A stretch of DNA of 46,713 nt from Bacteroidota bacterium (GTDB lineage: Bacteria; Bacteroidota; Bacteroidia; Bacteroidales; Prolixibacteraceae). Below, one piece after another: positions 6,473 through 38,764 of this stretch. Each line of letters begins with the position of its first letter. The first letter of the stretch is position 1. Position numbers and translations under genes: made by a program. Under the pieces are notes generated by a model. It was given only the letters and a program-made list of their open reading frames with translations. It was not told the origin of the DNA and ran no database searches. The DNA is taken from contig JAUXUF010000206.1 of NCBI GenBank assembly GCA_030684645.1, forward strand, positions 1 through 46,713. The letters run 5' to 3'.

Positions 6473-6483
6473 GACAAAATATT

Positions 6484-7473: not shown

Positions 7474-7494
7474 ATAAGTCAGTTTGTATTGCTA

Positions 7495-7508
7495 CTAAAT
7501 CGATTTAG
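7495..7508. promoter_or_regulatory. Perfect palindromic LacI-type operator
   Basis: CTAAATCGATTTAG is a perfect 14-bp palindrome with a central CG, the typical form of LacI-family operators. It lies in the 51-bp gap between the LacI-type regulator stop and the ROK kinase start, 21 bp upstream of the kinase ATG. A 13/14 match occurs at 36229-36242 upstream of susC. I infer that the adjacent regulator binds both. Confidence 0.72.
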
Positions 7509-7524
7509 CTAAAGTATAAAAAAA

Positions 7525-17314: not shown

Positions 17315-19573
17315 TTACTTCTGAATAATTCCCAGATAGCGGGCTTCCCAGTATGGCCAAAGCCAAAATACAGGTTCCCGAACCTGAGTCAGATTGCCTT
17401 GTACTGCCGACCATGGATTTTTATCCCAACGCACGGTTGCCCGCATACTTGCCGGTGGAAGTTCCGAAATCTGTATTTCTTCCAGAATTGGACTCCTCAC
17501 AATCTGAACATCTTCGCGCAGGGTATGATTGATGGGCCAATCAACTAAATCAAGCGGAGCATCACGCAGAAAACCGATTGTTTGCGGAACATTTACTGTT
17601 TTTCCGGTTGCATAGGCATAGCTCAGATTATTAATCAGGTTTTCACCAAACGGCTGATTCTTCATCCATTCGTCCATCAATTTCTGATAGAATTCCTTCA
17701 GTTTTGGATCCTTTTCGTATTTCAGAATAATAGGGAAAAGGTAGCCTTCCAGGGTACGGTCGAAATAAATCTGCCAGGCCGGATTTTTCTGATTCAAATG
17801 AGAAACATTATCCAGATAACCTTCCTTGTCAATCAGGCGGCGATATTCCTTTTCATATTTTTCATCACCAGTCAGGTGACCAACAAATTTCAGATAGGTC
17901 AGCAGTTCGAAGGAATTGATACTGCGTTCCGAAGCCCAGTCGGGATCGTGGTTGAGCTGTTCGGGCGACCAGATGGCCCAGTGTGTTGGGGTTCCATCGA
18001 GATCAAGCAGATTATACCCGGTTTCAATCAGGTGATCGATGATCTTTTTCACATGATCACGAACGAGTATTTTCTCTGTTGAATCGGCTGCCAACTCATA
18101 AAAGTAAAAATAGCCCATCATGTGCCCATCCATTTCGTCGGTGCTGGTATCTCCTTTCCAGAGCCACTTTCCGTCGGCCGATTTTCTCCACCTGATTTCG
18201 ACAGGCTTATACCTTGGATCTTTTACCAGTTCCTCTGCAAGTTGTTTCGGAGTGTAAGTTCTGTTTAGGTCATGCACATAAGTCCAGTCTGGCGGTACAA
18301 TTGAGCGGGCAAAAAAACCTTCAGTACCGGTAACTGTCTGTAAATACTTCAGGAATTCAAAAGCTTTCCGGGCTTTGATCTTTGCATCGGGATCTTTGGT
18401 TGCGGCATACCTGAAACTCTCCATGGCCAGATAACCTCCGGTATATTCACCATCATTATCATCATCCGAATTGACCCAGCTGGAAGTATCTCCCGGAACC
18501 TGAAGGCGTAAACTTCCACAGGTCCAGGGTGCACGGATGTATTTTTTCATCAGTTGGCTGTAGAAATTTTTCTCCTTATCAGCCAGGGTCATTAAATTCC
18601 GTTTGATGTTACTCACCCCATGATCGGTTGCAACCCAGGCATTTCCCTCCCGGTCAAATGCCACATCATTGACTTTATTATTGGTCAGCCAACGGCGGCT
18701 GAAACGCAATGAGTGTGAATAATCTTTGTCAAAACGAACCACACCGACATCGGTACCAACCCACATTAAACCATCGGGAGACTGGCTGATGCAATTCACA
18801 TTTGCTGATGAGATACCTTCTTCCGGAGTTAAATTCTTAATCAATCTTTCGTCCCGGCGAACAGAAACACCACCCAGAACACCGGCCCATAAATCACCTT
18901 TTGGCGAAAATGAAATCGCCTTCACATAGCAACTAATCAGTTCTTCAGTATTCTGAAATAAAGTTGTTTTGCCGTTCTGACAGATATATAAACCGGCATC
19001 GGTACCCACCCATAAATTTCCTTTTCCATCAACGGCAGCATCGCGGACAGAACGCGCAAGGGCATATTCCTCTTCCACCCATTTATTGCCTTTCGAATGC
19101 CAGATACCGTTTGGGCCCATCGCATAATTACCTTCGTCGTCGTTGCAAACAATCGAAATTGGCGGATTGGCGCCCTCTTCCTTCTGAAGCTGAGTATTGA
19201 AAAACCGATAGATGCCATTCCATGTTCCTATTAAAACTGCTCCATCCGGATTTACAACTATTGAATAAGCCGGGCCTCTGTCTTCTCCTGAAATAATGGG
19301 CTCCCATTTCCGGGAATCAGCAGTTTTCCTGAAGATTCCTGAAGCAGTGGCAATCCATACATTTGCTGCCTGATCAACTGCGATACTCCTGACCTGATTG
19401 TCTTCATTGTCTGGACTGACCATATAGGCATCGTGAGTCTCCTGAACAAAAGCAGTATCGGGATAGACTTCCGGTTTTACTGAATTCCGTGTGTGCTTTG
19501 CCTGCGGATTACATGAAATAAATCCAAGAGCCAAAATGCAGGGAATGACAAAGAATAATTTTAGGTTTCTCAT
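17315..19573 (-). CDS. Propeller plus alpha-helical-barrel lipoprotein, paralogue A
   Basis: 752 residues from the ATG at 19573. The frame is open further upstream to 19804 but would overlap the DUF1349 gene, and only the internal start gives a lipoprotein signal (ILALGFISC, C21). The N-terminal half holds two-component-regulator-type propeller repeats such as NVWIATASGIFR, NLWVGTDAGLY and NAWVATDHGVSN. The C-terminal half is all helical, with DDDNDGEYTGGYLAMESFRY, STDEMDGHMMGY and LDLDGTPTHWAIWSPEQLNH. It ends in WLWPYWEARYLGII. It is a distant relative of the proteins at 26139 and 28555. The helical half resembles (alpha/alpha)n-barrel glycosidases, epimerases or lyases, and the acidic and His residues in the shared motifs are catalytic candidates, but I do not recognise a characterised family. 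Confidence 0.75.
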   Translation of the reverse strand: MRNLKLFFVIPCILALGFISCNPQAKHTRNSVKPEVYPDTAFVQETHDAYMVSPDNEDNQVRSIAVDQAANVWIATASGIFRKTADSRKWEPIISGEDRGPAYSIVVNPDGAVLIGTWNGIYRFFNTQLQKEEGANPPISIVCNDDEGNYAMGPNGIWHSKGNKWVEEEYALARSVRDAAVDGKGNLWVGTDAGLYICQNGKTTLFQNTEELISCYVKAISFSPKGDLWAGVLGGVSVRRDERLIKNLTPEEGISSANVNCISQSPDGLMWVGTDVGVVRFDKDYSHSLRFSRRWLTNNKVNDVAFDREGNAWVATDHGVSNIKRNLMTLADKEKNFYSQLMKKYIRAPWTCGSLRLQVPGDTSSWVNSDDDNDGEYTGGYLAMESFRYAATKDPDAKIKARKAFEFLKYLQTVTGTEGFFARSIVPPDWTYVHDLNRTYTPKQLAEELVKDPRYKPVEIRWRKSADGKWLWKGDTSTDEMDGHMMGYFYFYELAADSTEKILVRDHVKKIIDHLIETGYNLLDLDGTPTHWAIWSPEQLNHDPDWASERSINSFELLTYLKFVGHLTGDEKYEKEYRRLIDKEGYLDNVSHLNQKNPAWQIYFDRTLEGYLFPIILKYEKDPKLKEFYQKLMDEWMKNQPFGENLINNLSYAYATGKTVNVPQTIGFLRDAPLDLVDWPINHTLREDVQIVRSPILEEIQISELPPASMRATVRWDKNPWSAVQGNLTQVREPVFWLWPYWEARYLGIIQK

Positions 19574-20314: not shown

Positions 20315-21490
20315 TTATTCCATTAACCATTTCATATTCAAGTTCTCCACCATTTTGACATACCATGCCGACATCTGGCCGCAGTCTTCGTTCCCGCATA
20401 ATCCTTCCGGTAAATTCTGACAAAGTGTGTTGATGATCTGATTGGTATAAACTACTGAGACTTTGATTTCCCTGGGTTTAACCGTTTCGTTTACTTTGAT
20501 TGCTGGCATCCTTTGTGAAACAAGCCGGACCTTTTCAGTTCGATAAAGGGTCACAGCTTTCCATCCGGAACCATCAAAATCAATGGTATTCCAGCCTTGC
20601 TGATCCAGATTTGCGTCATAGATTTCACCATCGTAAACACAATTAGATATTTCAGGCCCGTCGGCCCATTTCCAGTTTTCGTCAGTTTTAACAATCTGAC
20701 TGGAGCCGTCTTCGTTGGTAATTTCAATCTGGGCGATTGCTTTTTTGAAACCAAACCACTGCATGCGATACTGATTCCACCATTTTTTATACGGATTGTA
20801 CCAACCATTTCCCAAATGAATGCCGAGCGTATTTTTACCATCTTTCAAAAGTTGGGCGATATCGTACGAATCGTACAAAACGTATTTGTGATAGGGAGTT
20901 TTTGCCGATTTGATTTTCTTTGGAAGATCAATTTCATTGCGAAGTAAAATGGAATTGCCGTGATGTGGAATGGAATCCTTCATTAAAGTCTCGTCTTTTC
21001 TGCTTCCGATAAATCCCTTTTCAGGCAAGACTTCCGGCTCAGTCCCCTCACCTATCCAGCTGGCCTGCCATTCTCCGGCATTCAGGATGGCAGTTTCGAA
21101 AACCGAAACCGGACTTTCGAATTCCTTTCCGGCGCCATCCCAGACCATAACTTTCCAGAAATATTTTTGATTTGATTTTAAGCTTATTCCTTCCGGTTCA
21201 TGCTGAATTGTTACCGAGGAAATTACTTTACCTGAATTCCAGATATCACCTGAATTCTCCGCCAGTTTTAGTGTTGAGGATGCCACCAAAATCCGGTAGG
21301 CCGATTGGATTTGATTCCGTTCATCAATTGAAATAATCCATGAAAACCGAGGATGCCCTTCGTCAATATTGATCGGATTTTCAGCATATTCAACCAGCAT
21401 CTTCCTGAATTTGATTTCAGAATGATTATTCATTGAACAATTCATGATCAATATTCCTGATGTGACAAGAAGCAGTATTCGATGTATCAT
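20315..21490 (-). pseudogene. Chimeric pseudogene: GH78 N-terminal part fused to a GH92 fragment
   Basis: 391 codons are open, with a lipoprotein signal (LIMNC, C18). Residues 25-345 match the N-terminal beta domains of GH78 rhamnosidases (compare residues 28-363 of the intact enzyme at 10062), including LGNGWYNP and YDGEIYDANLDQQGW. About 25 residues are missing at residue 197 (KSAKTPYHKY), where the strand pair around YISGLGYYELYING should be. At about residue 346 GH78 stops. The next 33 residues, 346-378 (20357-20455), read as a GH92 alpha-1,2-mannosidase: GLCGNEDCGQMSAWYV is the family's hallmark loop. After WYV the GH92 match also stops. No catalytic domain of either family is left, so the product is almost certainly non-enzymatic. 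Confidence 0.82.
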
Positions 21491-23123: not shown

Positions 23124-24116
23124 CTATTTTTTGAACGAATCGGGCCACCGGCATTCCAAAACTTTTTTGCCACCTTTTTCCCGAATCCAGGTATCGAACT
23201 GACGCTTACCTTCAGTTAAAACAATGACCCGTCCTCCGGCCATAGGATCCTTTTCCGGATCCTTCATGATTTTGGTAACCCTTCCGTAGGCCAGTGCCAT
23301 ACCGTAATATACACCGATGTAATCATTAATATGGTCGTGACCTACAAAAGTTCCCATCACATCGCCACTTTCAAGCATAGCCGTAAACATTCCTGAATTA
23401 ACCGGAGGGCTACATTCAGCCTCATTTTTAACACCAATAGCCTTGGCATTCTGATTATTCCAGGCAGCAACATACTCAGGCAGTGGAATATGAAAGAAAG
23501 CGAGTGCGGGAATTGGATTCCCCTTGTTTTCACGGGTGTATTCACTGCTTCTTTTCCGGTACCATTCAATCTGTGAAAAATCGAACCAGCCGTAGCCGTC
23601 AACAGTTGGTTGAAGCGTACTGTAATCATTTGAATCCATGCAATATAACAAAGCTTTTGGATTCTTATCTTTCCCGTAAACAGGCAGTATAAAATTCGAA
23701 TTGCCTTTAATCTTGCCCTTATCATCATTCAAACAAAGCGGAAGTCGATGAAGATAGTTCGCGAGCCGTTTCCGGTCATATCCGCGCTCCGATTCATGAT
23801 TACCAAAAACCACTACCCACGGAACTTTTGCTTTACTGAAAATAGCTGTAAAGCGCCGGTAACCTTCTTCCGGATTTTCCTCTGTAACAATATCTCCGGT
23901 AAGAATTACCAGATCAGGCTTCTCAATTTCAAGTATTTCCTGAACGGTCTCATAAATATTCAAATTATCTCCATCAACCAGATGTACATGCGTATCGGTA
24001 AACTGAACGATTTTAAATTCGCCATTCGGTTTAAATTTTAATTGGCCGGCAGGTTTCGCACCGACGGAAACGATGAAAGCAACAGATAATAACAGCGTAA
24101 TTAAAATTTTCTTCAT
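23124..24116 (-). CDS. Secreted calcineurin-like metallophosphoesterase
   Basis: 330 residues from the ATG at 24116; the frame extends to a TTG at 24140, but the internal ATG directly gives a signal peptide (MKKILITLLLSVAFIVSVGA). All blocks of the calcineurin-like dimetal site are present in order: FTDTHVH, LTGDIVTEEN, FGNHES, ALAFFHIPL and GHDHIND. The family hydrolyses phosphomono- or diesters; the substrate is not given by sequence. It is similar in type to, but not a duplicate of, the phosphoesterase just upstream (24173-25948), 56 bp away. Two exported phosphoesterases in one glycan locus suggest removal of phosphate or phosphodiester groups, or phosphate scavenging. Confidence 0.87.
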   Translation of the reverse strand: MKKILITLLLSVAFIVSVGAKPAGQLKFKPNGEFKIVQFTDTHVHLVDGDNLNIYETVQEILEIEKPDLVILTGDIVTEENPEEGYRRFTAIFSKAKVPWVVVFGNHESERGYDRKRLANYLHRLPLCLNDDKGKIKGNSNFILPVYGKDKNPKALLYCMDSNDYSTLQPTVDGYGWFDFSQIEWYRKRSSEYTRENKGNPIPALAFFHIPLPEYVAAWNNQNAKAIGVKNEAECSPPVNSGMFTAMLESGDVMGTFVGHDHINDYIGVYYGMALAYGRVTKIMKDPEKDPMAGGRVIVLTEGKRQFDTWIREKGGKKVLECRWPDSFKK

Positions 24117-24172
24117 TTTTTTTGTGTTTCGCCCTTTCAAGGTTCTGAATCCTGAATGGCTAATTGTATCTT

Positions 24173-25948
24173 TTATTTTTTAATATTGAATGAATCGATG
24201 ACCTCATTCTGAAAATTGACCGCTTCAAAAGTCATTTTGTTGCCGTCAATCTTCATGTACTGATAAAGCTGACCTTTGAGATCGCGTTTTGCAGCGTAGG
24301 GTTCATCTGAAATATGATCATAATTAGTAGGTATCGCAATAGAAATGACATAAGCGGTTCCATCGTTGTAGGATGAAACGACCTTTCCGCCTTTCATCGG
24401 ATTTGATCGCATGTAATAATGAATATGACCCCCAATAACCATATCGACATGGTATTTATCGAAGATGGGCGCCCATGCTTTTTGAATATTGAAATAAGGT
24501 CCTTCCCAGTTGTATGGAGGAAAATGAAACATGGCGATTTTCCAGGTAGCGTCGGTTTTTGCAAGCTGTTCTTCAATCCAGGCATTCTGGACTTCAATGG
24601 GCGAAGTGCAATCAATCATCAGGAACAGGGCGTTTTTATACCGGAATGAATAAGTGTGTTCTTCCGGAACTCCGGCAGGCGCATTCTTTGGATAACTGAA
24701 AAGTTCGCGGTACATGAGGGCGCCCAAACCACTTCGGTTATCGTGATTTCCAAGTACATTCATCATCGGTTTACGGCTGATCATGTTTTTGGGGAACTCA
24801 AAAAACCGATCCCACTGATCGCGATGCAAACCATCGCTGACCATGTCTCCGGCGACCGAATAAAATGCGGCATCCGGATGATCCTGTTCGGCCTTATTGA
24901 TGATCTCTCCATATTTTTCGGAATAGTGCGTATCTCCTAACCAGACAAATGAGAATGAATCATCATTATCAGCGGTTGAGAACGTATGATTTTCAGTCCA
25001 ATCAGTTTGCGGAATAATCTGATATTCATAGGTAGTTCCGGGTTTTAAATTCCTGAGCTGGGCCGTAAAACGGTTGATGTAACGATCATTCATCAAAACA
25101 CGGTCTTCCATTCGATATCTTTCAGCCGGGGCAGTCAACTCCTGTGTGCTGCCTTTTATACGGTACTTTACTTCTCCTGAAGTAACAGTAGTATCGGTCC
25201 GCCATTGAATATCCATTCCGGTTGAAGCATCCGAACTCCAGGTTAACATGACCTGATCAGGAGTTTTTGAAGACGGGAAAGAGGTTGTCCGGAAAGCGCC
25301 CAGAATATGTGTTTCAGTTCCTCTACCCCGGATGGTAGTCAGGTATTGTTGTCCTTTCATGGCGTCAGGCACATTCCTTAAAACCAATTCATCCCAGTCG
25401 TGATATACAAAAGCGCTGTCCTGTAAAACTCCGACATACTGATTTTCAGGAAAGAAATTGCTCAGTACCAACTTATCATTCTTATTCTGAGGAGCCACCG
25501 ATACAAAGTAATGAAGCGAGTAATTTTCGATGCCATTTATTCCTAAACCGATTTGGCCTGCAACAAACGATTTCTGCCATACTTCGTAAGTAACCTGCTC
25601 GTTGTTCATCGTCAAATCCGTCTTTTTGAATCCGCTTTCGCTCAGCCAGAAAGGCACAATTTTTTGCTCAGTACTGCGCATGACGGATACTGTAACAGGA
25701 ACATTTACGGTAAACATCCAATGCCTGGTAGAAAGCACCTGCTTTTCGTTTTCAGAAAACAGAGCCATTGCCTTATCATTATCCAATCCTGACAATTGTT
25801 TTTCATCCATGGCCTTATACAACCGGGCAATGGTTTGGTCCATGACACTTTTTACCGTTTGCTCTTTCGGAGTGCAGGAAACCAGCATTGTTACCAAAAA
25901 GTAAAGCACCAGATATCCGAACAATTTTGACAAGTGATTTTCCTTCAT
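24173..25948 (-). CDS. Purple-acid-phosphatase-like lipoprotein
   Basis: 591 residues from the ATG at 25948; a TTG seven codons upstream opens the same frame, but the ATG gives the better lipoprotein signal (VTMLVSC, then TPKEQ). Residues about 50-215 are unassigned and beta-rich. Then comes an N-terminal purple-acid-phosphatase fibronectin-like domain (PDQVMLTWSSDAS to LKPGTTYEYQIIP) and a dimetal phosphoesterase domain with WLGDTHYSE, VAGDMVSDG, LGNHDNRSG, MFHFPPYNWEG and GGHIHYYMRS. Metal ligands are complete, so it should be active at the cell surface or in the periplasm. The long N-terminal extension is unusual. It follows propeller paralogue B across a 190-bp repeat-containing gap. Confidence 0.85.
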   Translation of the reverse strand: MKENHLSKLFGYLVLYFLVTMLVSCTPKEQTVKSVMDQTIARLYKAMDEKQLSGLDNDKAMALFSENEKQVLSTRHWMFTVNVPVTVSVMRSTEQKIVPFWLSESGFKKTDLTMNNEQVTYEVWQKSFVAGQIGLGINGIENYSLHYFVSVAPQNKNDKLVLSNFFPENQYVGVLQDSAFVYHDWDELVLRNVPDAMKGQQYLTTIRGRGTETHILGAFRTTSFPSSKTPDQVMLTWSSDASTGMDIQWRTDTTVTSGEVKYRIKGSTQELTAPAERYRMEDRVLMNDRYINRFTAQLRNLKPGTTYEYQIIPQTDWTENHTFSTADNDDSFSFVWLGDTHYSEKYGEIINKAEQDHPDAAFYSVAGDMVSDGLHRDQWDRFFEFPKNMISRKPMMNVLGNHDNRSGLGALMYRELFSYPKNAPAGVPEEHTYSFRYKNALFLMIDCTSPIEVQNAWIEEQLAKTDATWKIAMFHFPPYNWEGPYFNIQKAWAPIFDKYHVDMVIGGHIHYYMRSNPMKGGKVVSSYNDGTAYVISIAIPTNYDHISDEPYAAKRDLKGQLYQYMKIDGNKMTFEAVNFQNEVIDSFNIKK

Positions 25949-26013
25949 CCTAATTCGTGTTTTAAACAATAGGTATCCATTTTCTCAGCGGCTCTTAGCG
26001 TTTACTTTGCAAG

Positions 26014-26138: not shown

Positions 26139-28364
26139 TTATTTCTTTTCAGGAGCGGAGATCACATCAAGGTACCGGCCAATCCAATAAGGTAAAAGCC
26201 AAATATCACCGGCGCTGTTTTCCGACCGGCCGGCATCATGCCCATCCAATGTAAACAGATTTGAATTATGACGGGCAATTCTCGTTTCATCCGGAGGCAA
26301 CACCTCAGTAATGGTTTGTTGCCTGAAATTAGGTTCAACCGGAGTGATATCTTTACGCTGGCTGTTTGAAACCGACCAGTTAATCAAATCCAGCGGATAC
26401 TCCTGCAAATACCAGACAGCCTCGTTAAGATCAATATTTTTGGCGCCTGAAATAGCTGTCATTATATTCCATAGTCCTTCTTTTTCTGACCGTTCATATT
26501 CAAAATGATCGATAATTGCAGCCTTATACTTCGCTTTCAACGTATCGTTCAGAGCATACCGGTATAAACCCCAGTAGCCGCAGAAATACATCTCGTCATC
26601 CGAATGGTTCCATTCGCTTGATAAGTCTTTACTCAACTCATCGGCATCATCAGGAGCCATCCCGATTTCTTTCATGGGCTTCATCAGATTTTCGAGATAT
26701 CCATATTTTTTCATCAGGGTTAATGCAGCTTCTTTATATTTCTCTTTGTGAGTAAAGTGATAAGCTGTCTGCAACATGGCAATAATATTGGATGAATTAA
26801 TCTTGCGGTCGCCTACCATTTTAGGCCGGGCATTCACATATTCCGGATTCCAGCGGCCCCAACGGGTAGGTTCGCCATTCCAGTCGATCATATAAAAATT
26901 ATTCCTGACAACATGCGACATCAGAGTATCGATGAGCAAAACAGCTTTATTCTTTAATTCCGGCACATCGACCAATTCAGCAATTGCACCAAAGGCAAAA
27001 ATATGCCCAATCGCTTCATCACTACTGGTTGTGGATTTCCAGTCCCATTCCGGATCGTCAGCACGGCGCCATGGCTCACTGTCGAATTTATAACCGCGTC
27101 TTTCAAACGACCGGGAAGGAAATCCGGAGTTGAGACCATTAATCGAATATAAGCGCTCCATGGCATCCAACGATTCGCGTACATTTTGCAAGGCTTCTTC
27201 GGATTTGGTAACTGAATAGCGAAATGTTTCAGCAGCCAGGTACATGGAAGTCCACAAACCATCGTTATCCGAGTCTTCCATAATTCCGGAGGTCACATCG
27301 CCAGGTATAGTGAGTATCGTATTCGCATTAAATCCGGTACGGATATGACGCTCGCGAACCTGTTTTTCGAAAAACAAGGCTTTATCATTTAAAGTCATTT
27401 CCTGAAAACAGATTTTACCCAAACCCTTGGTAGTCAGAACCAGCACTGAGCTTTCAGTACCTTTTGCAATGTCAACAATTGTATCTGAAGGTATCCAGCG
27501 TTCGCCTGAATAATAATTAAACTTTCCATCTTTACGCAACATCATGGCTCCCCAGGTAGAACCGAACCAGATATTTCCATCAATTTCGGTAACTGATGTT
27601 AAATCTGTCCAGGGCATTATTTTATGAATATCGCCAAGTTGTTTTTTTGTTTTCTGATCTATTTCGTAATAACCGTCTGTTGTTCCTGCAATCAGTTTAT
27701 CTCCGGAAATTCCAATACAGCTGAGGCTATTGTTTTTAAGTACACTTTCGAGTTCCTTTTTTTCCGTAGAAAACACACTGATTGATTCTTTCCCCAAAAT
27801 CCAGAATTGATTATTCGCTTCATCAAATTTGATGTCTTTCACTTCATCTCCCGGAAGTGAGCTTTCCCAAACAAGCTTCGAATCTTTCAAAAGACCAAGT
27901 TTTGTTCCGTCAGAAATCAGGAATACAAAATCTTTTCCTCCGGATAATAATTTCACACCAGGCATCGAATGTCTGGAATATAATTTACCCGCCCAGGCAT
28001 TGCTAAAAATGGCTTTGTCGTCGGCATAAACCAATTGATCCTGGTAAGTACCGATGGCAGCAATTTTTTTATCCGAAGTTTGCTTATCCTGAACATCGGT
28101 AACTAATGTACCCGGAAACAGGAACTGACCGGCGCGGGTACGCAACAATCCTTTTGAAGAGTAGATCTGGATATAACCGTTCCGGTCTGAGACTACTTTA
28201 TTTAGTTTAATTTTTTCGTCAGCAAGATTGAACTTGATGCTGAAATCCTGGGTAAAAGATTGGTCCTGATGCTGTGGTACATCCTTCTTGTCATTATTAG
28301 TTGTACAGGAAACAACGGTGAATGCATACAGAAAAAGGGCAATTCGGTACAGGGTTATTTTCAT
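26139..28364 (-). CDS. Propeller plus alpha-helical-barrel lipoprotein, paralogue B
   Basis: 741 residues, lipoprotein signal TVVSC (C20). Residues about 40-320 are propeller blades (YIQIYSSKGLLR, NIWFGSTWGAMMLRKDG). Residues about 335-741 are helical and strongly conserved with the protein at 28555: DSDNDGLWTSMYLAAETFRY (364-383), GFPSRSFERRGY, TTSSDEAIGHIFAFG (445-459), DWNGEPTRWGRWNPEYVNAR (494-513), and the end DIWLLPYWIGRYLDVIS. The invariant Asp/Glu pair and His in SSDEAIGH and the D...PT.W..W.PE motif are candidates for an active site. Each protein is separately preceded by a repeat-bearing gap. No function is known to me; an (alpha/alpha)-barrel glycosidase or lyase is the best guess. 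Confidence 0.75.
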   Translation of the reverse strand: MKITLYRIALFLYAFTVVSCTTNNDKKDVPQHQDQSFTQDFSIKFNLADEKIKLNKVVSDRNGYIQIYSSKGLLRTRAGQFLFPGTLVTDVQDKQTSDKKIAAIGTYQDQLVYADDKAIFSNAWAGKLYSRHSMPGVKLLSGGKDFVFLISDGTKLGLLKDSKLVWESSLPGDEVKDIKFDEANNQFWILGKESISVFSTEKKELESVLKNNSLSCIGISGDKLIAGTTDGYYEIDQKTKKQLGDIHKIMPWTDLTSVTEIDGNIWFGSTWGAMMLRKDGKFNYYSGERWIPSDTIVDIAKGTESSVLVLTTKGLGKICFQEMTLNDKALFFEKQVRERHIRTGFNANTILTIPGDVTSGIMEDSDNDGLWTSMYLAAETFRYSVTKSEEALQNVRESLDAMERLYSINGLNSGFPSRSFERRGYKFDSEPWRRADDPEWDWKSTTSSDEAIGHIFAFGAIAELVDVPELKNKAVLLIDTLMSHVVRNNFYMIDWNGEPTRWGRWNPEYVNARPKMVGDRKINSSNIIAMLQTAYHFTHKEKYKEAALTLMKKYGYLENLMKPMKEIGMAPDDADELSKDLSSEWNHSDDEMYFCGYWGLYRYALNDTLKAKYKAAIIDHFEYERSEKEGLWNIMTAISGAKNIDLNEAVWYLQEYPLDLINWSVSNSQRKDITPVEPNFRQQTITEVLPPDETRIARHNSNLFTLDGHDAGRSENSAGDIWLLPYWIGRYLDVISAPEKK

Positions 28365-28457
28365 GATCGTTAGTTTATGTTTAAATTTAATTTACAGATT
28401 TTGTGTACAACTAATAGCTTTTGATTTTCTCTATAACTCTTTACGTTAAAAAATCCT

Positions 28458-28497
28458 ACCCGCAAAGATAATTTGCAGAGAACGCCAGAGGCAAAAG
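28458..28497. repeat. Decayed copy of the CTCTGCGGTT-type repeat
   Basis: In the 190-bp gap between propeller paralogues B and C, ACCCGCAAAGATAATTTGCA followed by GAGAACGCCAGAGG resembles the repeat at 26014-26078 with several changes and little remaining symmetry. Its place in the same relative position, upstream of a paralogue, could reflect duplication of gene plus gap. Confidence 0.4.
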
Positions 28498-28554
28498 TTA
28501 TTAGGATATTATTTTCAAAATTTTCCTCATTGGGTACGCAACCGGAAATTCAGT

Positions 28555-30789
28555 TTATTTTTTTTCCGGCTCACTGATCACGCCCAAATACCGACCCATC
28601 CAATAAGGTAATAACCAGATATCACCGGCGCTTTCCTCCGAAGTCCCGTTAGCGCCCACCCGATCCATGTTAAACATGTTTCCGTTGTGGCGTTGAACAG
28701 GCCGTTCATCAGGAGGCAAAACTTCAGCAGTGGTCTGCTGTCTGAAATTGGGTGCAATCAACTGAATGTCTCTCCTTTGGCTATTCCGGATGTCCCAGTT
28801 AATCAAATCCATAGGATGTTCCTTCAGGTACCAGACCGCTTCGTTCAGGTCAAATTCAGGAGTAACCATTGCGGTAAAAATATTCCAGGCGCCTTCCTTT
28901 TCAGGCCTTTCAATTTCCCAATGGTCAATAATCGCATCTTTAAACTTAGCTTTTAATTCGTTATTCAACGCATACCGGTATAAACCCCAGTACCCAATGA
29001 AATACATTTCATCATCGGAATGGTTCCATCCATCAGACAATTCTCTGCTTAACTGATCAGCATCGGCAGGCGCCTGTCTGAGAGACTTCATAGGTCTCAT
29101 CAGGTTTTCGAGGTATCCATATTGATCCATCAATTCGAAAGCTTTCTTTTTAAAAATCTCTTTTTTAGTAAAATGATAAGCGGTCTGCAGCATGGAAATA
29201 ATGTTGGACGAACAGATTTTACGGTCTCCTACCATAACCGGCCTGGCATTGACGTATTCCGGATTCCATCGCCCCCAGGTGGTAGGCTTTCCGTCGAAAT
29301 CGACCAGGTACATGTTGTGATCAACAATGTGCTGCATCAAAATATCAATCAAGTGGATAGCTCTTGTTTTCATATCAGGCACATCCATCAGTTCGGCCAT
29401 CGCACCCAAAGCAAAAATGTGGCCGATGGCTTCATCACTGCTTGTGGTGGCTTTCCAGTCCCATTCCGTGTCTTTTGAATGACGCCAACGGTCGGGATCC
29501 GATAATTTGGCAATATTTCCACTGCGCTCAAATGACCGGGAAGGAAACCCGATTTCATTGGAGTTGATCGTATATAAGCGTTCCATCGCGTCGAGTGATT
29601 CCCTACAGTTTTGCAAAGCATCGGCTGATTTGGTGACTGCATATCTGAATATTTCGCCACCCAGGTACATGGATGTCCATAAGCCATCATTGTCTGAATC
29701 ACTTAAATATCCGGTTGAAAGGTTGCCATTTTTCAATCCGTCCCAAGATGCATTAAATCCATTCCGGATATGGCGTTGCCGGACCTGGGTTTCGTAATAC
29801 ATCGCTTTCTCTTCCAACGTCATGTTTTTAAAACAGATTTGACCGAGTCCTTTGTCCGTCAAAATCAAAACAGAGTGATCAGGCCCTTCAGAAATATGTT
29901 TGACCTGATTTCCGGGCAACCAACGCTCGCCATTGTAATAATTATATTTCCCATCTTCACGAAGCATGAAAGCGCCTGATGTCGAACCGAACCATACTTT
30001 TCCATTTATGTCATTCACACAGGTGATATCAGTAGAGGGAAGTTTCCGTCGAATTTCACCGTTTTGTTTCTTAGTGATCGTATTGAATTCGATGTAGCCG
30101 TTTTTAGTACCAATAAAAATGGTATTGCCTTTTCCGGTCAGATCGAAGGATGTAAAATCAGTTCCGTCCAGAACCTTGGTCAGTTTCTTTTCGGCCAATG
30201 AAAACGTGTTCAGTGATTGATTTCCTAAAATCCAGAACAGTCCATTTTCTGCTGAATAACGGATATCAATAATTTCATCGGTCAGTTTTCCTGACCAAAG
30301 TGATTTCGAATCTTTGATGCATTGAAGGACAGTACCGTCAGAAACCAGGAAGGTGAAATCAGGACCTACGGCGAACAGTTTAGCATCGGGCAATTCATGC
30401 TTCGCAAACAGGCTTCCGGCCCAGGCATTGCTCAAAACTGCAACATTATCGAGGTAAATGAATTGATTCTCGTACAAAACCATGTTGGTAAGCTTTTTAT
30501 TTGCCATACCACGATAGCTCTTGTCGGGAACGACTTTTCCGGGATAAAGGAATTCAGCCGAGAGTGGCTTCAGTAAATCCTCGCCCGATAAGATTTGAAT
30601 GTTTCCATTCCGGTCGGCAAAGACTTTTTTTAGATCTAAAGAAGCATCAGTTGTATAGTATTTAATGCTGTAATCCTGAGAAAATGGAACATCTTTATAA
30701 ACAGGTTTTACTGATTTTTGAGCAGATGTCAATTCGGAGTTAATCAACTGAAGTAAAAGGAGGAAAATAAAAAGGTTTATTGTTTTCAT
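28555..30789 (-). CDS. Propeller plus alpha-helical-barrel secreted protein, paralogue C
   Basis: 744 residues with a cleavable signal (INSELTSAQ), not a lipoprotein signal, so this copy is probably periplasmic or released while copies A and B are membrane-anchored. Propeller blades include NIQILSGEDLL, KVWFGSTSGAFML and SVLILTDKGLGQI. The helical half repeats the motifs of paralogue B almost word for word: SDSDNDGLWTSMYLGGEIFRY, TTSSDEAIGHIFALG, DFDGKPTTWGRWNPEYVNAR, and the end DIWLLPYWMGRYLGVISEPEKK. B and C are a tandem duplication that has diverged mostly in the propeller. It is the first gene after the SusD terminator, so its expression depends on read-through or a promoter in the 146-bp gap. 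Confidence 0.75.
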   Translation of the reverse strand: MKTINLFIFLLLLQLINSELTSAQKSVKPVYKDVPFSQDYSIKYYTTDASLDLKKVFADRNGNIQILSGEDLLKPLSAEFLYPGKVVPDKSYRGMANKKLTNMVLYENQFIYLDNVAVLSNAWAGSLFAKHELPDAKLFAVGPDFTFLVSDGTVLQCIKDSKSLWSGKLTDEIIDIRYSAENGLFWILGNQSLNTFSLAEKKLTKVLDGTDFTSFDLTGKGNTIFIGTKNGYIEFNTITKKQNGEIRRKLPSTDITCVNDINGKVWFGSTSGAFMLREDGKYNYYNGERWLPGNQVKHISEGPDHSVLILTDKGLGQICFKNMTLEEKAMYYETQVRQRHIRNGFNASWDGLKNGNLSTGYLSDSDNDGLWTSMYLGGEIFRYAVTKSADALQNCRESLDAMERLYTINSNEIGFPSRSFERSGNIAKLSDPDRWRHSKDTEWDWKATTSSDEAIGHIFALGAMAELMDVPDMKTRAIHLIDILMQHIVDHNMYLVDFDGKPTTWGRWNPEYVNARPVMVGDRKICSSNIISMLQTAYHFTKKEIFKKKAFELMDQYGYLENLMRPMKSLRQAPADADQLSRELSDGWNHSDDEMYFIGYWGLYRYALNNELKAKFKDAIIDHWEIERPEKEGAWNIFTAMVTPEFDLNEAVWYLKEHPMDLINWDIRNSQRRDIQLIAPNFRQQTTAEVLPPDERPVQRHNGNMFNMDRVGANGTSEESAGDIWLLPYWMGRYLGVISEPEKK

Positions 30790-30935: not shown

Positions 30936-32621
30936 TCATTGCAGTAACCACATTTTTGACCATGAACTATCTTTACCATCCTGAGCGGTAAATGCAGTTT
31001 CAACCAAACCAGTAACTGCGGCAGCGTAATTCGTAGAATTTCTGTTTTTCTCATTGGCATCGTACCGGTAACGCAATGGCATTGCATCACGTTTTCCTTT
31101 TGCACCAAATTTAAGAGCAGGAAGACCTGTTCTTCTCCAGTCGCACCACGATTCAGTTGCATTATTCCAGTTAGCAATCCATTTCTGGGTCATAATCTGA
31201 TCTAATCCACCATTGTAGGCTACGCCTGCACCAGCAATATAAGAAGTATAATTACCACCTACACCCCAAGTTTCGAGCGATGCTTTCACACCCTTTTCAT
31301 ACCACGATTGTTGTCCACCAACTGACCAGCCTTTTTTGGCAGCTTCAGCCAAAATAAAACAAACTTCAGAATATGAAATTAACCTTGATTTTTGCATATT
31401 ACCTTTGGCATTCTTATACTTATCAGCAAGTGCTGAAATATGATCATTGTATCCTCCTTGTGTTGGATTCGGGTTCAGGTTATAATTGTATGGTTCATAT
31501 CCAACCACAGCAGTTGGAATAGCTGCGTAATCCATCGTATCAATGATTGTTTGACTTGCAGCTGAAGCAGCTTGCCAGGTATTTTTGTTATACACAATAT
31601 ATCCCTGAGCAGCCACATAAGATGGAAGAAGATATCTTACACCATCCACTTTTGTATCCTCAACAGGAGCAAATTTGGTTGAAATTTTAATTGGCACCTT
31701 GGTTTTATTAAACCAAACTGCGATCCGGGGATCTTTAAAGGCAACCAGTACATCTCTGAAACCTGCACAAAGCTGGATTCTGCTAAAATTACTTTGACTT
31801 TGATCGTACGTGGTATTCGCAGGCCATGAATCGTTATTGGAGGTACCAATGTAATCCATCGTTGCATCATCATCATTTGCAGTAAAAATCGGGTAGCTAT
31901 TTGCATTGGAAGTAATCGCTTCAATACCCGCTTTAGCATAATCAGGCAGCTTGGTAGAAACCCGCATATAATATCTCAGCATCAACGAATTGGCCAATTT
32001 TCTCCATTTTAACGGATTTCCATTATAAATGACATCAGCATCCTGATTGATACCACTATAAGCATCAATCGGTTTTGACAACAAGGTATTCGCCATTTTA
32101 AGGTCTTCGATCATCCCTTTGTATATTGTCTCTTGTTTATCAAATACAGGGAACAAATCTTCCTGGCCACCAGCCGGTGCATTTAATGCAGCCGTATAAG
32201 GTGCATCGCCCCAGCCATCAGTAATAATACCGAAGTTGAAAGCCCTTAAAACCAAAGCCATTCCCTGCTGGAATTCCATGCCTTCGGCTACCGACCTATC
32301 GTATAGCTGTTTAATATTCCGAAGGTTGCCATAATAGCCTTCCCATGAACTTTCACTGGTCCATTCAAAATTGTTTGTACCAGAACTCCAACCACTTTGC
32401 TGGATGTATTGCATCACACCAGCTACGTTTCCATTGTATCCGTTACTCAAATAGGGTTGTGCTGTTGCAGTAATCACTGTCGTTACCAAAAGGTTCGGAT
32501 TGACAGTTGATGGATCGACGCCATTCGGGTTCACATTCAATGTGGTAAGGTCTTTACATGATGCAAATCCTACCATTATTAGAACCAGAAACAATTTATA
32601 ATGTGTTTTCATAAATTTCAT
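30936..32621 (-). CDS. SusD/RagB-like surface glycan-binding lipoprotein
   Basis: 561 residues with a lipoprotein signal (MVGFASC, C22) followed by KDLTTLNVNPNGVDPSTVNP, typical of the SusD_2 subgroup. Helical TPR-like stretches run through the protein (GMALVLRAFNFGIITDGWGD, RKLANSLMLRYYMRVSTKLP). The C terminus QKWIANWNNATESWCDWRRT to WSKMWLLQ is the standard SusD end. SusD proteins sit over SusC and hold the oligosaccharide before import. Its gene follows susC by 28 bp and is followed by the terminator at 30863-30901. A second SusD tail with the same closing WLLQ sequence lies upstream of susC. Confidence 0.93.
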   Translation of the reverse strand: MKFMKTHYKLFLVLIMVGFASCKDLTTLNVNPNGVDPSTVNPNLLVTTVITATAQPYLSNGYNGNVAGVMQYIQQSGWSSGTNNFEWTSESSWEGYYGNLRNIKQLYDRSVAEGMEFQQGMALVLRAFNFGIITDGWGDAPYTAALNAPAGGQEDLFPVFDKQETIYKGMIEDLKMANTLLSKPIDAYSGINQDADVIYNGNPLKWRKLANSLMLRYYMRVSTKLPDYAKAGIEAITSNANSYPIFTANDDDATMDYIGTSNNDSWPANTTYDQSQSNFSRIQLCAGFRDVLVAFKDPRIAVWFNKTKVPIKISTKFAPVEDTKVDGVRYLLPSYVAAQGYIVYNKNTWQAASAASQTIIDTMDYAAIPTAVVGYEPYNYNLNPNPTQGGYNDHISALADKYKNAKGNMQKSRLISYSEVCFILAEAAKKGWSVGGQQSWYEKGVKASLETWGVGGNYTSYIAGAGVAYNGGLDQIMTQKWIANWNNATESWCDWRRTGLPALKFGAKGKRDAMPLRYRYDANEKNRNSTNYAAAVTGLVETAFTAQDGKDSSWSKMWLLQ

Positions 32622-32649: not shown

Positions 32650-35600
32650 TTAGAAACTTACATTTAGTTTAAAACCTACTGGGATAGTCCACGGGGAAAC
32701 GTTGAAACGTTCAATACCTTGTTTAAACTGAATACCGCTGCTTCCCTGCACACCACTTTCAGGCTGGAAGGCCATTTCCGGATCTATTCCAACTTTGGCT
32801 TTGGTCCATAGAATGATATTACGGCTGTATAGAGAAAGAGAAGCATTCTGAATTCCGATTGACTTCAGTGAAGGAAGTTGATAGGAAAGTGAAATTTCTC
32901 TTAGTTTCACAAAATCAGCATCAAAAGTTGCATTGCGGGTATAATCCCAACCGTAGAAATCCTGATACCTGATTAATGGAGTTCCGGCATCACCGAGGTG
33001 TTCAGCAACAGCAACAAATTTTCCATTGTCATCATAGTCTCCCTCAACACCCGGCATAAACACACCATCATTTAAGGTAATACCACCTTCAGTATGAGAA
33101 AGACCACCTGTGCCTTGTGTTGGTCCACCAACAACTACAAAGAAGTCACCGCCCGGAGAAAGATACTGATCGGCATGGTCTTTCAGGTATTGTGCCATCT
33201 GAGGTCCACTTAAATTATTAATTTTAACGGTACGATCGATCCATCTTTGTGAATGCAAATCGGATTCACCATAACGTAAGGTTTGAGAAACGAACTGTCC
33301 GCCTTTTCTCCAATCTAAACTGGCGCTCAATGTCCATTTTTTATATTTAACTGATGTTTGTACTCCCACAGTAAAGTCAGGGTTGAAGTTACCAATAACC
33401 GGGGCAACTCGCTTACCATCTTTTTCCCATGTTCCGCTAGAACTATCCCATCCTTCATTGTCAACAATAGGCCATCCGTAATAAGGTGAAGATTTATCTT
33501 CAACACGTAAAAGTTGTTTATCGATGATTTGTCCGATCTCTTCACCAACCCAAGTCACAGCGCCACCTTTAGCATCTGTCCATAATGTAATGTAATTGAA
33601 GCCTTTAGACAATTCTTCAACTTTGGTTCGGTTCTTTGAATACACCAAGTTAATATCCCAGGTCAGGTCGTTGGTTTTAATAGGAGTACCACCAACAGAA
33701 AGTTCGAGACCTTTACTTGAAATTAAGCCGGCATTAATTTGCTTGGCACTACTACCTGAAGAAGGTGGAAGACCAATACTTAATACCTGATTTTTATTTT
33801 CAGCGGTATAATAGGTTCCTTCCATTTTTAAACGGTTGTCAAAAAATCCAAGGTCAGCACCAATTTCCCATGAAGTTTGAATTTCAGGTTTTAAATCAGG
33901 GAGTAATAAAGTACCTGAAGTTGACAAACGTGTTTGGTCGCCCCATGATCCAACATTACCCATTGAAGCTAATAAGCGGTAAGGATCGGTATCATTACCT
34001 ACCATGGCTATACCACCTCTTAATTTAGCCAAAGAAACTTTATCGCCCAAATCAACCATGTTATTCACCAATAAACTTAATGAGGCTGATGGGTAAAAAT
34101 AAGAACGGTTTTGTTCAGGCAGCGTACTTGACCAGTCATTTCTGACAGTCAAATCAAGATATGCATAGTCCTTATAACCCAATGAAGCTAATGCATAAGT
34201 ACTGTAAATAGCCTTTTGACTCCATGCAGAACCATATTGGATATTACTTAAAGCAATATTACTGAGTGAATAAATGCCCGGAATTACTAAACCAGAACCA
34301 CCGTCTTTTGCCTTTGTTGTGTTATTGGCCGCATACTGATACATATAGTTAGCTCCTGCAGAAGCATTGATACTTAAATCACTGATTTTTTTATTAAATG
34401 TCAGGAGGAAATCAGCATTTTGCTCTCTTCTGTACATATTTGCTAAACCATAAAATCCTTTAGGCTCTTTACTATAACTAGGAGCAATTTTAGTTTCAAT
34501 GAATTCATGAAATTGGTCGTGCGTATAACGAACCATCAGGGCAAAATCAGAATTAATTTTCCAATCCACTTTAGCATTACCGTAAACCCTGTCTCTTTTG
34601 AAACCATTATTTACTTCATTTGCAAGGAAGTATGGGTTATTGGCAAAATCTCCCGTCCTTTCATAGCTGCCGTCAGGATTAATATCAAGCGTATAAGGTC
34701 CGTTCTGTTGAATACCTTCTTTTCCTGGTTCCCAGTAATTTTTCATCAAAAGAACATCAATCGAAGGGTTTGTTTCATAAAGGGCCTGTATCGGGTTTGC
34801 CCCGCGGTTTCCGGCCGGACGGTTGCCAGCTCCTGAAGATGTAAAGTTAATGCTTGAACTAATTTTAATTTTATCAGTAATCTTAACCAAAGAATTCAAA
34901 GAAATTGAATTCTTATGCAAATCACTGTTTGGAATAACACCTTTATTCTGCATGTCGCTATATGACAACCTGTAATCAATTTTATCAGTCGCATCAGTAA
35001 TAGAAACTGTGTTATCAGTAGTAAATCCCGTTTCAAAGAAATTTTTATAGTTATCAGGGTGCGATACCAACGGGGTTGCCTGAAGAGCGCCATTGGCATC
35101 AAAATAAGGCCACTGGTAAGCCAACATCCCTTTGTCAAGTTCCGGACCAACCCATGCAGATTCAGTTGGATCAGCAACATAGTATGGCAATCCGTTATTT
35201 GGCCGGTTATCCTGTGTATAAGGACGTGTTCCGTAACCCATCAGGTTGTGCATGGGCAGATACTTATATGGATTTTCAGCAACGGTATTTGAGCTGATTG
35301 AGATACCCAATCCTTTCTTTTTCTTTCCGGTTTTGGTCGTAATCAAAACCACCCCGTTACCGGCTCTTGAACCATAAAGTGCTGCGGCGCTAGGTCCTTT
35401 CAACACAGAAACGCTTTCAATATCTTCCGCGTTAATGTCGGAGATCGCGTTACCGTAGTCAGCTTTATTATCGCCTCCCATTTGAACTACGTTGTTCAGG
35501 GTGTTGTTCATCGGAATTCCGTCAACAACAAATAAAGGCTGATTATCACTGGTTAACGACGATGCACCACGTATAACCATACTAACTGAAGATCCAGCTG

Positions 35601-36069
35601 TACCGGTAGAGCTAATCTGTACACCGGCAACTTTTCCAGAAAGGGCATTCAGTACATTATCCTGAGCTACAGTCTGAAGACTTTCTCCACTAACCTCTGC
35701 AACTGAGTATCCCAGAGATTTCTTTTGACGTGAAATACCTAAAGCTGTAACAACTACCTCATCAACGCCAATGCTTACCGAAGCTAAAGTGACATTAATT
35801 ACAGATTTACCATTCACAACCACTTCCTGACTTTGCATTCCAACGAAGGAAAAAACAAGAACCGATTGAGCAGTTGGGGCAGTAATGTTGTATTTGCCAT
35901 CCATATCGCTAAGAACACCATTGGTGGTGCCTTTAACTACGATGGTCGCCCCAGGAAGAACTTCTCCATCGGAACTAACAACACCACTCACTTTAAACTG
36001 GGCAAATGCATTGCTTGTCAGAAAAGCAAACATTCCCAATAGGAGCATTTGTAAGACTTTCTTTTTCAT
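32650..36069 (-). CDS. SusC/RagA-like TonB-dependent outer-membrane transporter
   Basis: 1139 residues from the ATG at 36069; a TTG two codons earlier is in frame, but the ATG directly opens the signal peptide MKKKVLQMLLLGMFAFLTSN, which ends near NAFAQ. A carboxypeptidase-regulatory-like domain follows (about 25-105, FKVSGVVSSDGEVLPGATIV), then the TonB-plug region with GVDEVVVTALGISRQKK and the SusC signature NAEDIESVSVLKGPSAAALY and GSRAGNGVVLITTK. A long 22-strand-type barrel follows and ends in a terminal aromatic (FKLNVSF). There is no N-terminal FecR/sigma-interaction extension, so it does not signal to an ECF sigma factor. It imports oligosaccharide with the SusD lid. A LacI-type operator lies 160 bp upstream. 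Confidence 0.95.
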   Translation of the reverse strand: MKKKVLQMLLLGMFAFLTSNAFAQFKVSGVVSSDGEVLPGATIVVKGTTNGVLSDMDGKYNITAPTAQSVLVFSFVGMQSQEVVVNGKSVINVTLASVSIGVDEVVVTALGISRQKKSLGYSVAEVSGESLQTVAQDNVLNALSGKVAGVQISSTGTAGSSVSMVIRGASSLTSDNQPLFVVDGIPMNNTLNNVVQMGGDNKADYGNAISDINAEDIESVSVLKGPSAAALYGSRAGNGVVLITTKTGKKKKGLGISISSNTVAENPYKYLPMHNLMGYGTRPYTQDNRPNNGLPYYVADPTESAWVGPELDKGMLAYQWPYFDANGALQATPLVSHPDNYKNFFETGFTTDNTVSITDATDKIDYRLSYSDMQNKGVIPNSDLHKNSISLNSLVKITDKIKISSSINFTSSGAGNRPAGNRGANPIQALYETNPSIDVLLMKNYWEPGKEGIQQNGPYTLDINPDGSYERTGDFANNPYFLANEVNNGFKRDRVYGNAKVDWKINSDFALMVRYTHDQFHEFIETKIAPSYSKEPKGFYGLANMYRREQNADFLLTFNKKISDLSINASAGANYMYQYAANNTTKAKDGGSGLVIPGIYSLSNIALSNIQYGSAWSQKAIYSTYALASLGYKDYAYLDLTVRNDWSSTLPEQNRSYFYPSASLSLLVNNMVDLGDKVSLAKLRGGIAMVGNDTDPYRLLASMGNVGSWGDQTRLSTSGTLLLPDLKPEIQTSWEIGADLGFFDNRLKMEGTYYTAENKNQVLSIGLPPSSGSSAKQINAGLISSKGLELSVGGTPIKTNDLTWDINLVYSKNRTKVEELSKGFNYITLWTDAKGGAVTWVGEEIGQIIDKQLLRVEDKSSPYYGWPIVDNEGWDSSSGTWEKDGKRVAPVIGNFNPDFTVGVQTSVKYKKWTLSASLDWRKGGQFVSQTLRYGESDLHSQRWIDRTVKINNLSGPQMAQYLKDHADQYLSPGGDFFVVVGGPTQGTGGLSHTEGGITLNDGVFMPGVEGDYDDNGKFVAVAEHLGDAGTPLIRYQDFYGWDYTRNATFDADFVKLREISLSYQLPSLKSIGIQNASLSLYSRNIILWTKAKVGIDPEMAFQPESGVQGSSGIQFKQGIERFNVSPWTIPVGFKLNVSF

Positions 36070-36452
36070 AAACAAATAGTTTAGTTATTAATAAAGAATT
36101 AATTTTTAGTACCTCATCCTTGCGGAAGTATCATTTGTCTTTTAATCTTCACAAATTTCGGAACAAATTTTAACAAAACTTACGGAATATTATTCTTGTT
36201 ACGTTATATTTTAACATTAACATTTTAACTAAATCGATTCAGTAGTAAATAAATGTTAATATCTAACCATAAAAGAAATAATATTATATTACAATGCATA
36301 ACGTTTCCTGTGATAAAAAATAGTTGGCTCTTCTAATAAATATAAACCATTTGAAGCAAAATTCAAAAGATCTGTCCTCGCTGGTGAGAGAACAGATTTC
36401 CTGTAAAATCACTTTCAAATAGGTAGTCAGCACTTACCTAAGCCACTCTTAA
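36070..36452. other. AT-rich susC upstream region
   Basis: 383 bp between the SusD tail and the susC start, strongly AT-rich, with the operator at 36229-36242. I looked for the Bacteroidota -7/-33 promoter elements (TAnnTTTG and TTTG) on the minus strand and found only weak matches, so no promoter is called. The 160 bp between operator and ATG could form a long 5' leader. No other gene is seen. Confidence 0.6.
36229..36242. promoter_or_regulatory. Second LacI-type operator, upstream of susC
   Basis: CTAAATCGATTCAG differs at one base from the perfect palindrome CTAAATCGATTTAG at 7495-7508. It lies in the AT-rich susC upstream region, 160 bp before the susC ATG. The match across 29 kb, in the two gaps where a sugar-responsive regulator would be expected to act, supports a shared LacI-family regulator (inference). 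Confidence 0.68.
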
Positions 36453-38257: not shown

Positions 38258-38686
38258 TCAAAGCAAATACGATAAAACACAGCAATGAATTGAATGGTCT
38301 ATTCATAATCAAATCTCTTTTTCTTGGCACAAGTCATTACATGAATAACCAGTGGCAGTTTGAACTACCTAAAATAACAAAGAATGACCTTCAGTTGCTG
38401 CTGACATTTTACTAAATTTACATAGTTTATTAACCTTTAGGCCAAACAGCAAAATCCAGGCTGTATAATTATTGCTTTTTATTTTTTGTTCGTTTGAAAG
38501 CAAATCTATCTGATTTATAATCTCAACTCTTAGTTCAAGAATCGAAATGGCCGGAAAAGTTCGTGGGTTAATTTACTATCTGATTTGATTAAAAAAGAAG
38601 AAGTTCTGATTTTTCAAATAGCCTTTCTTTGTTTAGATCGGTAATTTTAAACCAATTGGAAAATTCTGATTCGTCCGTCGAATTGA
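38258..38686. other. Divergent gap without recognisable genes
   Basis: 429 bp between the minus-strand locus and the plus-strand relics, AT-rich. I checked both strands and found only short frames with stops, no palindrome comparable to the repeats elsewhere and no tRNA-like fold. It should hold promoters for both directions if the flanking genes are transcribed from here, but none can be called. Confidence 0.5.
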
Positions 38687-38764
38687 AAAACCTTAATCAA
38701 CGTCGGAGAGGTCTGGCTTTTGCCCTACTGGATGGGCAGGCATCTGGGTGTAATCAGCAAACCT
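38687..38764 (+). pseudogene. C-terminal relic of a fourth propeller/alpha-helical paralogue
   Basis: On the plus strand the frame from 38687, just after a stop, reads GEVWLLPYWMGRHLGVISKP. This matches the ends of paralogues B (GDIWLLPYWIGRYLDVISAP) and C (GDIWLLPYWMGRYLGVISEP) nearly residue for residue. No further family sequence is seen upstream, so only the extreme C terminus survives. The frame then drifts on for about 38 codons without family similarity. Confidence 0.75.

Follow-up and report, generated by a model that had tools for sequence, protein, structure and literature searches.

The window analyzed here is the whole 46,713-nt contig JAUXUF010000206.1 of assembly GCA_030684645.1 (Bacteroidota bacterium, Prolixibacteraceae), and our subject is a set of three related proteins encoded on it, designated A, B, and C (Table 1). 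An earlier, sequence-only reading had described these as intact paralogues from a family expanded within a single glycan locus, each joining a regulator-type propeller to a helical C-terminal half with a candidate active site. The three intact open reading frames (ORFs) lie where that reading placed them and are all encoded by the minus strand. An upstream TTG opens the longest ORF of A, with the ATG at 19573 giving the 752-residue form. C is 57% identical to B, while A and C share 26% identity. The proposed difference in anchoring was borne out by eye, with lipobox-like Cys residues in A (FISC) and B (VVSC) and none in the secreted-type C, as was the proximity to SusCD, since a SusC/SusD pair adjoins C. 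Other genes near A, B, and C encode two metallophosphatases, a Gfo/Idh protein, an esterase-like protein, members of glycoside hydrolase (GH) families GH3, GH78, and GH38, as well as SIS, ROK, LacI, and MFS proteins.

Table 1. Coordinates of the family genes, their domains, and adjoining features in the window.
Feature	Coordinates	Strand	Details
Paralogue A	17315..19573	-	752 aa; lipobox-like N-terminus; Reg_prop propeller then barrel
Barrel domain of A	17321..18580	-	A2 profile match, E 1.3e-169 (A is 1 of the 14 A2 rows)
Calcineurin-like phosphoesterase	23124..24140	-	
Purple-acid-phosphatase-like metallophosphatase	24173..25969	-	Recurrent neighbour; similar gene in 10/78 loci
Paralogue B	26139..28364	-	741 aa; lipobox-like N-terminus
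Barrel domain of B	26157..27386	-	A2 profile match, E 1.9e-185 (B is among the A2 rows)
Paralogue C	28555..30789	-	744 aa; cleavable-type signal sequence by eye
(alpha/alpha)6 barrel of C	28588..29817	-	Residues 325-734; predicted (AF2, Foldseek)
Seven-bladed propeller of C	29821..30684	-	Residues 36-323; predicted (AF2)
SusD-like lipoprotein adjoining C	30936..32621	-	PF12771, 1.5e-77
SusC-like TonB-dependent transporter	32650..36075	-	Plug, CarboxypepD_reg
Remnant of a further family copy	38666..38764	+	Last barrel helix only, WLLPYWMGRHLGVIS

The helical C-terminal half is predicted in the AlphaFold 2 (AF2) model of C to be an (alpha/alpha)6 barrel (mean pLDDT 94.1, pTM 0.93), with alternating outer and inner helices that match those of solved six-hairpin enzymes, and the fold is supported by Foldseek matches (among the top 50 listed per search); the modelled chain ends with this barrel. 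The regulator-type propeller claimed for all three proteins was recovered as Reg_prop (PF07494) in the first half of A (7e-17, 59.8 bits against a cut-off of 20.4, with SGL and PorZ-type propeller models below cut-off) and as a predicted propeller in C, the best Foldseek matches of which are the sensors BT4673 and BT4663 (E 8e-12); B and C, however, have no significant Pfam match there: their Pfam rows are at chance level (E 0.24 and 0.11), and NCBIfam gave none. For the barrel halves of A, B, and C, neither Pfam nor NCBIfam returned anything significant.

At least 240 residues precede the barrel in open frame for 159 of the 162 barrel matches that cover at least 300 profile positions, with frames taken stop-to-stop, shorter or locus-cut matches dropped, and some genes counted more than once through overlapping loci. 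The three exceptions are at loci L003 (broken), L061 (a 477-aa open frame), and L133. The last encodes a distant member (5910-8531 [+]; hhalign 99.5%) in which the barrel comes first and a BNR-type propeller is inserted before the last barrel helix; by eye, it does not keep DNDG or SSDE. Next to it lie two GH28 genes, one BNR_2 gene, and one GH92 gene; an assignment of these neighbours to GH78 was wrong, as the likeness lay in shared C-terminal modules and a Pfam scan gave two GH28 and one GH92. In L071, L076, and L079, single ORFs of 1531-1536 aa each contain two propeller-barrel units.

Conservation was followed across 70 members (A, B, C, and 67 relatives; residue numbers are those of C). 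The motifs SDNDG/DDNDG, TS(S/T)DE..GH, and D.(D/N)G.PT.W..W.PE from the sequence-only reading each occur in A, B, and C, as does a version of its W(L/I)(L/W)PYW ending (WLLPYW, WLLPYW, and WLWPYW), though the "WI" form was not seen. The Glu and His of TSSDEAIGH, however, are not invariant: DE..GH is present in 57 members, DQ..GQ in 11, and DE..AY in 2, such that E453 and H457 are each Gln in 11/70 and H457 is additionally Tyr in 2/70. No His is invariant, the three best columns reaching 97%, 81%, and 80% (the best being H340, in 68/70 and Tyr in A), and no column has Cys in at least 80% of members. Fourteen columns are invariant across the 70 members. Across 20 divergent members, the invariant residues include R342, D366, D368, R418, S450, D452, T503, W505, Y559, D592, D661, R672, and D674; D366 and Y559 are not among the 14 (Y559 is Tyr in 69/70), and the residue following D592, D593, is Asp in 53/70. 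Among the 24 top conserved positions, 18 fall in loops before inner helices and 1 in outer helices or back loops (p 0.010), although the same loops compared with everything else, inner helices included, give only p 0.09. DNDG and DxDG resemble calcium-binding loops, so not all conserved Asp residues need be catalytic. The proposed active site of acidic, His, and Trp residues thus needs revising, given the replacement of E453 and H457 throughout a subfamily and possible calcium sites at SDNDG and DxDG. That third subfamily, in which SSDQ..GQ replaces SSDE..GH (11/70), is encoded at L040, L024, L044, L061, and other loci, downstream of a C-type gene in these four; it would have either a changed activity or a role as a noncatalytic partner.

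The sequence-only reading could match the family to no glycosidase family familiar to it, and this held for all families searched via Pfam, NCBIfam, profile-profile comparison, and PDB sequences. No solid Pfam match to the barrel was found in the 70 members; the best glycosidase row was GH127 (PF07944; 2/70, best E 0.002, none for C), while Glyco_hydro_88, Glyco_hydro_76, and PF07221 (AGE/cellobiose 2-epimerase) were each reached by 0/70. The PDB search returned no solved structure significantly related by sequence, with matches to purine nucleoside phosphorylase (E 1) and catalase (E 0.77) rejected as chance. Profiles for hhalign were drawn from relatives of the window genome (7 to 20 sequences each; GH76 7, Glycoamylase 18, DUF2264 14). 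Against these, the 70-row family profile scored 3% with GH88/105, 34% with AGE, 3% with GH76, and 45% with GH127; a more diverse 20-row profile scored 3%, 25%, 2%, and 68%, respectively, as well as 1.5% with GH144 and 0.2% with DUF2264. A GH78 comparison made with one sequence only gave 0.1%. As within-family controls, the 49 C-close rows matched the other 21 at 100%, and the L133 protein matched at 99.5%. As yardsticks, GH88, AGE, GH76, and GH127 scored 36-96% among themselves, and 0.1-8.5% with GH144 or DUF2264 as one side; since these latter values are low too, low scores are compatible with shared ancestry.

Placement in GH88/GH105, in GH76, in GH144 (SGL clan, clan GH-S; 0.2-1.5% against the Glycoamylase-family proteins), and in DUF2264 (0.2-0.7%), which we take to be equivalent to GH154, was accordingly not supported. 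The known GH127 mechanism needs a conserved Cys nucleophile and Zn ligands, and the Cys is not conserved here; the AGE/cellobiose 2-epimerase mechanism uses several His, and the family is without two or more invariant His residues. Profile comparison therefore places the family in none of GH88/105, AGE, GH76, GH127, GH144, and DUF2264, GH127 being the nearest.

A scan of bacterial genome contigs detected at least 428 related stretches, the best 80 of which formed our locus set; 79 of these carry a Bacteroidota label, and one (L062) is Thalassobius by its metagenome-assembled-genome label only. In whole-genome searches, with counts that each include the window's own genome, matches were found in 14/61 genomes of relatives (13 after removing G354, with 6 of the 22 other genomes of the genus among them), 8/395 genomes of the class, and 6/296 of the phylum. 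The G354 match (L127, 5e-4) is GH76-type by eye, covers part of the barrel only, and was not counted as a family member. No relatives outside Bacteroidota were found on plasmids or viral contigs, the whole-genome searches having stayed within the phylum. The family is real and unnamed, spread over many Bacteroidota genera, with a patchy, accessory distribution.

The expansion within one locus, read as local duplication, fails for A: a clade of A+B+C was rejected (p-AU 2.4e-42), whereas B+C was not (p 0.16). In a quick tree (51 rows, 75% nonredundant, SH-aLRT support only, with very long branches for L133, L060, and L091), A clusters with A-type genes of Larkinella, Dyadobacter, Runella, and Emticicia (support 100), while B and C fall in a separate 19-row group (support 98). 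A-type genes occur in 26/80 loci, and two or more family ORFs in 38/80 (within the fetched flanks). The window locus thus gathers old subfamilies and not fresh duplicates of one gene; the "expansion" is mostly co-location. A fourth copy on another contig of the same genome (C56; L104 4008-5891) is broken, with propeller and barrel in different frames and its end cut by stops. The remnant in Table 1 adjoins a gene (36756-38033) that fits no Pfam family clearly and looks membrane-type by eye, with relatives also near family members in L139, L108, L007, L223, L118, L115, and L129.

The glycan context is supported. Among 78 loci, with one or two members per cluster scanned or matched to window proteins, neighbour clusters comprised BNR_2 (33), YdjC (24), DUF3748 (23), SusC (20), SusD (15), purple acid phosphatase (10), UxuA (10), and GH92 (7), with GH20, HGSNAT, GntP, GDPD, and GKRP-type SIS at 6 each; as Dyadobacter, Spirosoma, and Runella contribute many of these loci, the counts are not independent. 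In 32 loci hand-chosen across genera (the five nearest ORFs of up to 720 aa within 4 kb, three more loci having been dropped at a residue limit), the 119 neighbours included BNR_2 (16), DUF3748 (8), Metallophos (7), and YdjC (6). YdjC is rare genome-wide, with 44 genes in 20 genomes (133.6 Mb), and lies inside 12/20 loci by coordinates, though these 20 were picked after the clusters were known and are YdjC-richer than the whole set; the fairer figure is 24/78 loci observed against approximately 0.4 expected. A recurrent operon contains A, BNR_2, YdjC, C, and DUF3748. BNR_2 and YdjC deacetylase domains also occur in one open frame (L134 15712-17871 [+]; genome G317). From these neighbours, (i) the deacetylase, GH20, HGSNAT, and SIS suggest amino sugars, (ii) the phosphatases and GDPD suggest phosphate, (iii) UxuA, GntP, and DHDPS-type genes suggest acidic sugars, and (iv) GH92 and GH38 suggest mannose. 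With low confidence, the substrate may be an acidic, amino-sugar-containing, possibly phosphorylated glycan.

Two further window ORFs were noted. That at 20315-21490 (-) is chimeric, with the first part of a GH78 gene (21487-20453) fused directly to a GH92 piece (20452-20357); a deletion is likely, because G317 keeps GH78 and GH92 side by side with their catalytic domains. The ORF at 39056-41494 (+) matches GH20b/GH67N weakly at its N-terminus but no catalytic domain; genes related to it recur close to family genes (a cluster in 6/78 loci).

We give an even chance to the explanation that A, B, and C are exported carbohydrate-active enzymes of an unnamed family, most likely Asp-pair glycoside hydrolases. 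Probably periplasmic, each would combine a seven-bladed regulator-type propeller with a six-hairpin (alpha/alpha)6 barrel, the active site lying on the face bearing the N-termini of the inner helices. D452 (of SSDE) and D592 (of NHSDDE/WDDN), being invariant and opening inner helices, would be the leading catalytic candidates. Calcium binding is a possible role for DNDG and DxDG, and the invariant R342, R418, and R672 may grip an acidic substrate group. The glycan would be imported through the neighbouring SusC/SusD, and the subfamilies (A, B/C, DQ type, and others) would cut different linkages of it. We infer the hydrolase or lyase function, as well as any role for the propeller. Somewhat more tentatively, the propeller and barrel may form one catalytic unit of a new exported glycan-enzyme family outside the families tested, with at least five subfamilies, several of them co-located and expected to act one after another on a single acidic glycan that bears amino sugars and phosphate, and with the unit kept when the propeller is moved (L133) or doubled (L071, L076, and L079).

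The main rival to a glycoside hydrolase, which we consider unlikely yet well worth weighing, is lyase or dehydratase chemistry: the six-hairpin barrel would serve a polysaccharide lyase or a uronate dehydratase, abstracting a proton beside the Arg-held carboxylate of a uronic acid. The three invariant Arg residues and the near-invariant Y559 would suit such a reaction, and uronate-type genes flank some loci (UxuA-type 10/78, GntP-type 6/78, and DHDPS-type). GH154 has moreover been argued to be a glucuronate dehydratase and not a hydrolase (PMC12269599), and with this precedent the barrel fold alone cannot separate the two activities. However, no beta-sandwich domain follows the C barrel, unlike in PL8/12/15/17/21/23/35/39 (as listed in PMC12269599), the profile link to DUF2264 is low, and even the best-conserved His is not invariant.

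A noncatalytic protein for glycan binding or assembly, with a binding surface made up by propeller and barrel and with calcium held by the conserved Asp residues, would explain the calcium-like loops and the sensor domains matched by the propeller. We regard it as improbable, as conservation extends beyond DxDG to D452, S450, T503, W505, D592, and R418, several subfamilies that differ in motif (DE..GH versus DQ..GQ) are retained next to each other within a locus, and three ORFs contain two units each. Less probable still is an epimerase or isomerase acting on free oligosaccharides outside the cytoplasm in the manner of cellobiose 2-epimerase or GlcNAc 2-epimerase: against several His in that mechanism, only one His exceeds 90% here and is Tyr in A, and the known members are, to our knowledge, cytosolic, whereas A, B, and C have export-type N-termini.

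Ultimately, the fold is ordinary for glycan enzymes; what is new is the unnamed sequence family, the retention of its set of subfamilies, and its forms with a permuted or doubled propeller. As far as tested, the libraries searched give the at least 428 related stretches no family name other than "propeller", and those examined lie in glycan-use loci; one assigned activity would help to name them, and would also tell whether a propeller known from sensors can form part of an enzyme. The operon of A, BNR_2, YdjC, C, and DUF3748 offers partner enzymes ready for use as well as a substrate hint. Word matching of titles and abstract starts in the open-licence PMC literature found no paper on the family.

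Among known systems, cellobiose 2-epimerase and GlcNAc 2-epimerase (AGE) are the top Foldseek matches of the C barrel, yet at 9-12% identity, and differ from the A/B/C family in their invariant His set and in its export-type N-termini. The GH127 beta-L-arabinofuranosidases share the six-hairpin barrel and are nearest by profile (45-68%), but the family has no conserved Cys. The GH76 endo-alpha-1,6-mannanases BT2949 and BT3792 are 8-11% identical to the C barrel; of a possible counterpart to their adjacent Asp pair, D592 is invariant in the family and D593 is Asp in 53/70. The hybrid two-component regulators BT4673 and BT4663 share the propeller fold, with Reg_prop in A; those regulators have two propellers and a signalling half, whereas A, B, and C have one propeller joined to a barrel. 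The SGL clan (GH144, clan GH-S) is marked by a Glu, a Phe, and a Tyr (E239, F286, and Y367 of XcSGL). From it, PgSGL4 of Photobacterium gaetbulicola (Group 4) is described as having a signal peptide, a propeller (43-344), and an (alpha/alpha)6 barrel (345-739), and as inactive on beta-1,2-glucan, with its substrate not known (PMC12102758). Compared by description only, PgSGL4 is like A, B, and C in having a signal peptide and an N-terminal propeller running directly into the barrel, but differs in its six-bladed propeller, extra C-terminal domains, and GH144 kinship; with this precedent, the propeller-barrel architecture is not unique to the family described here.
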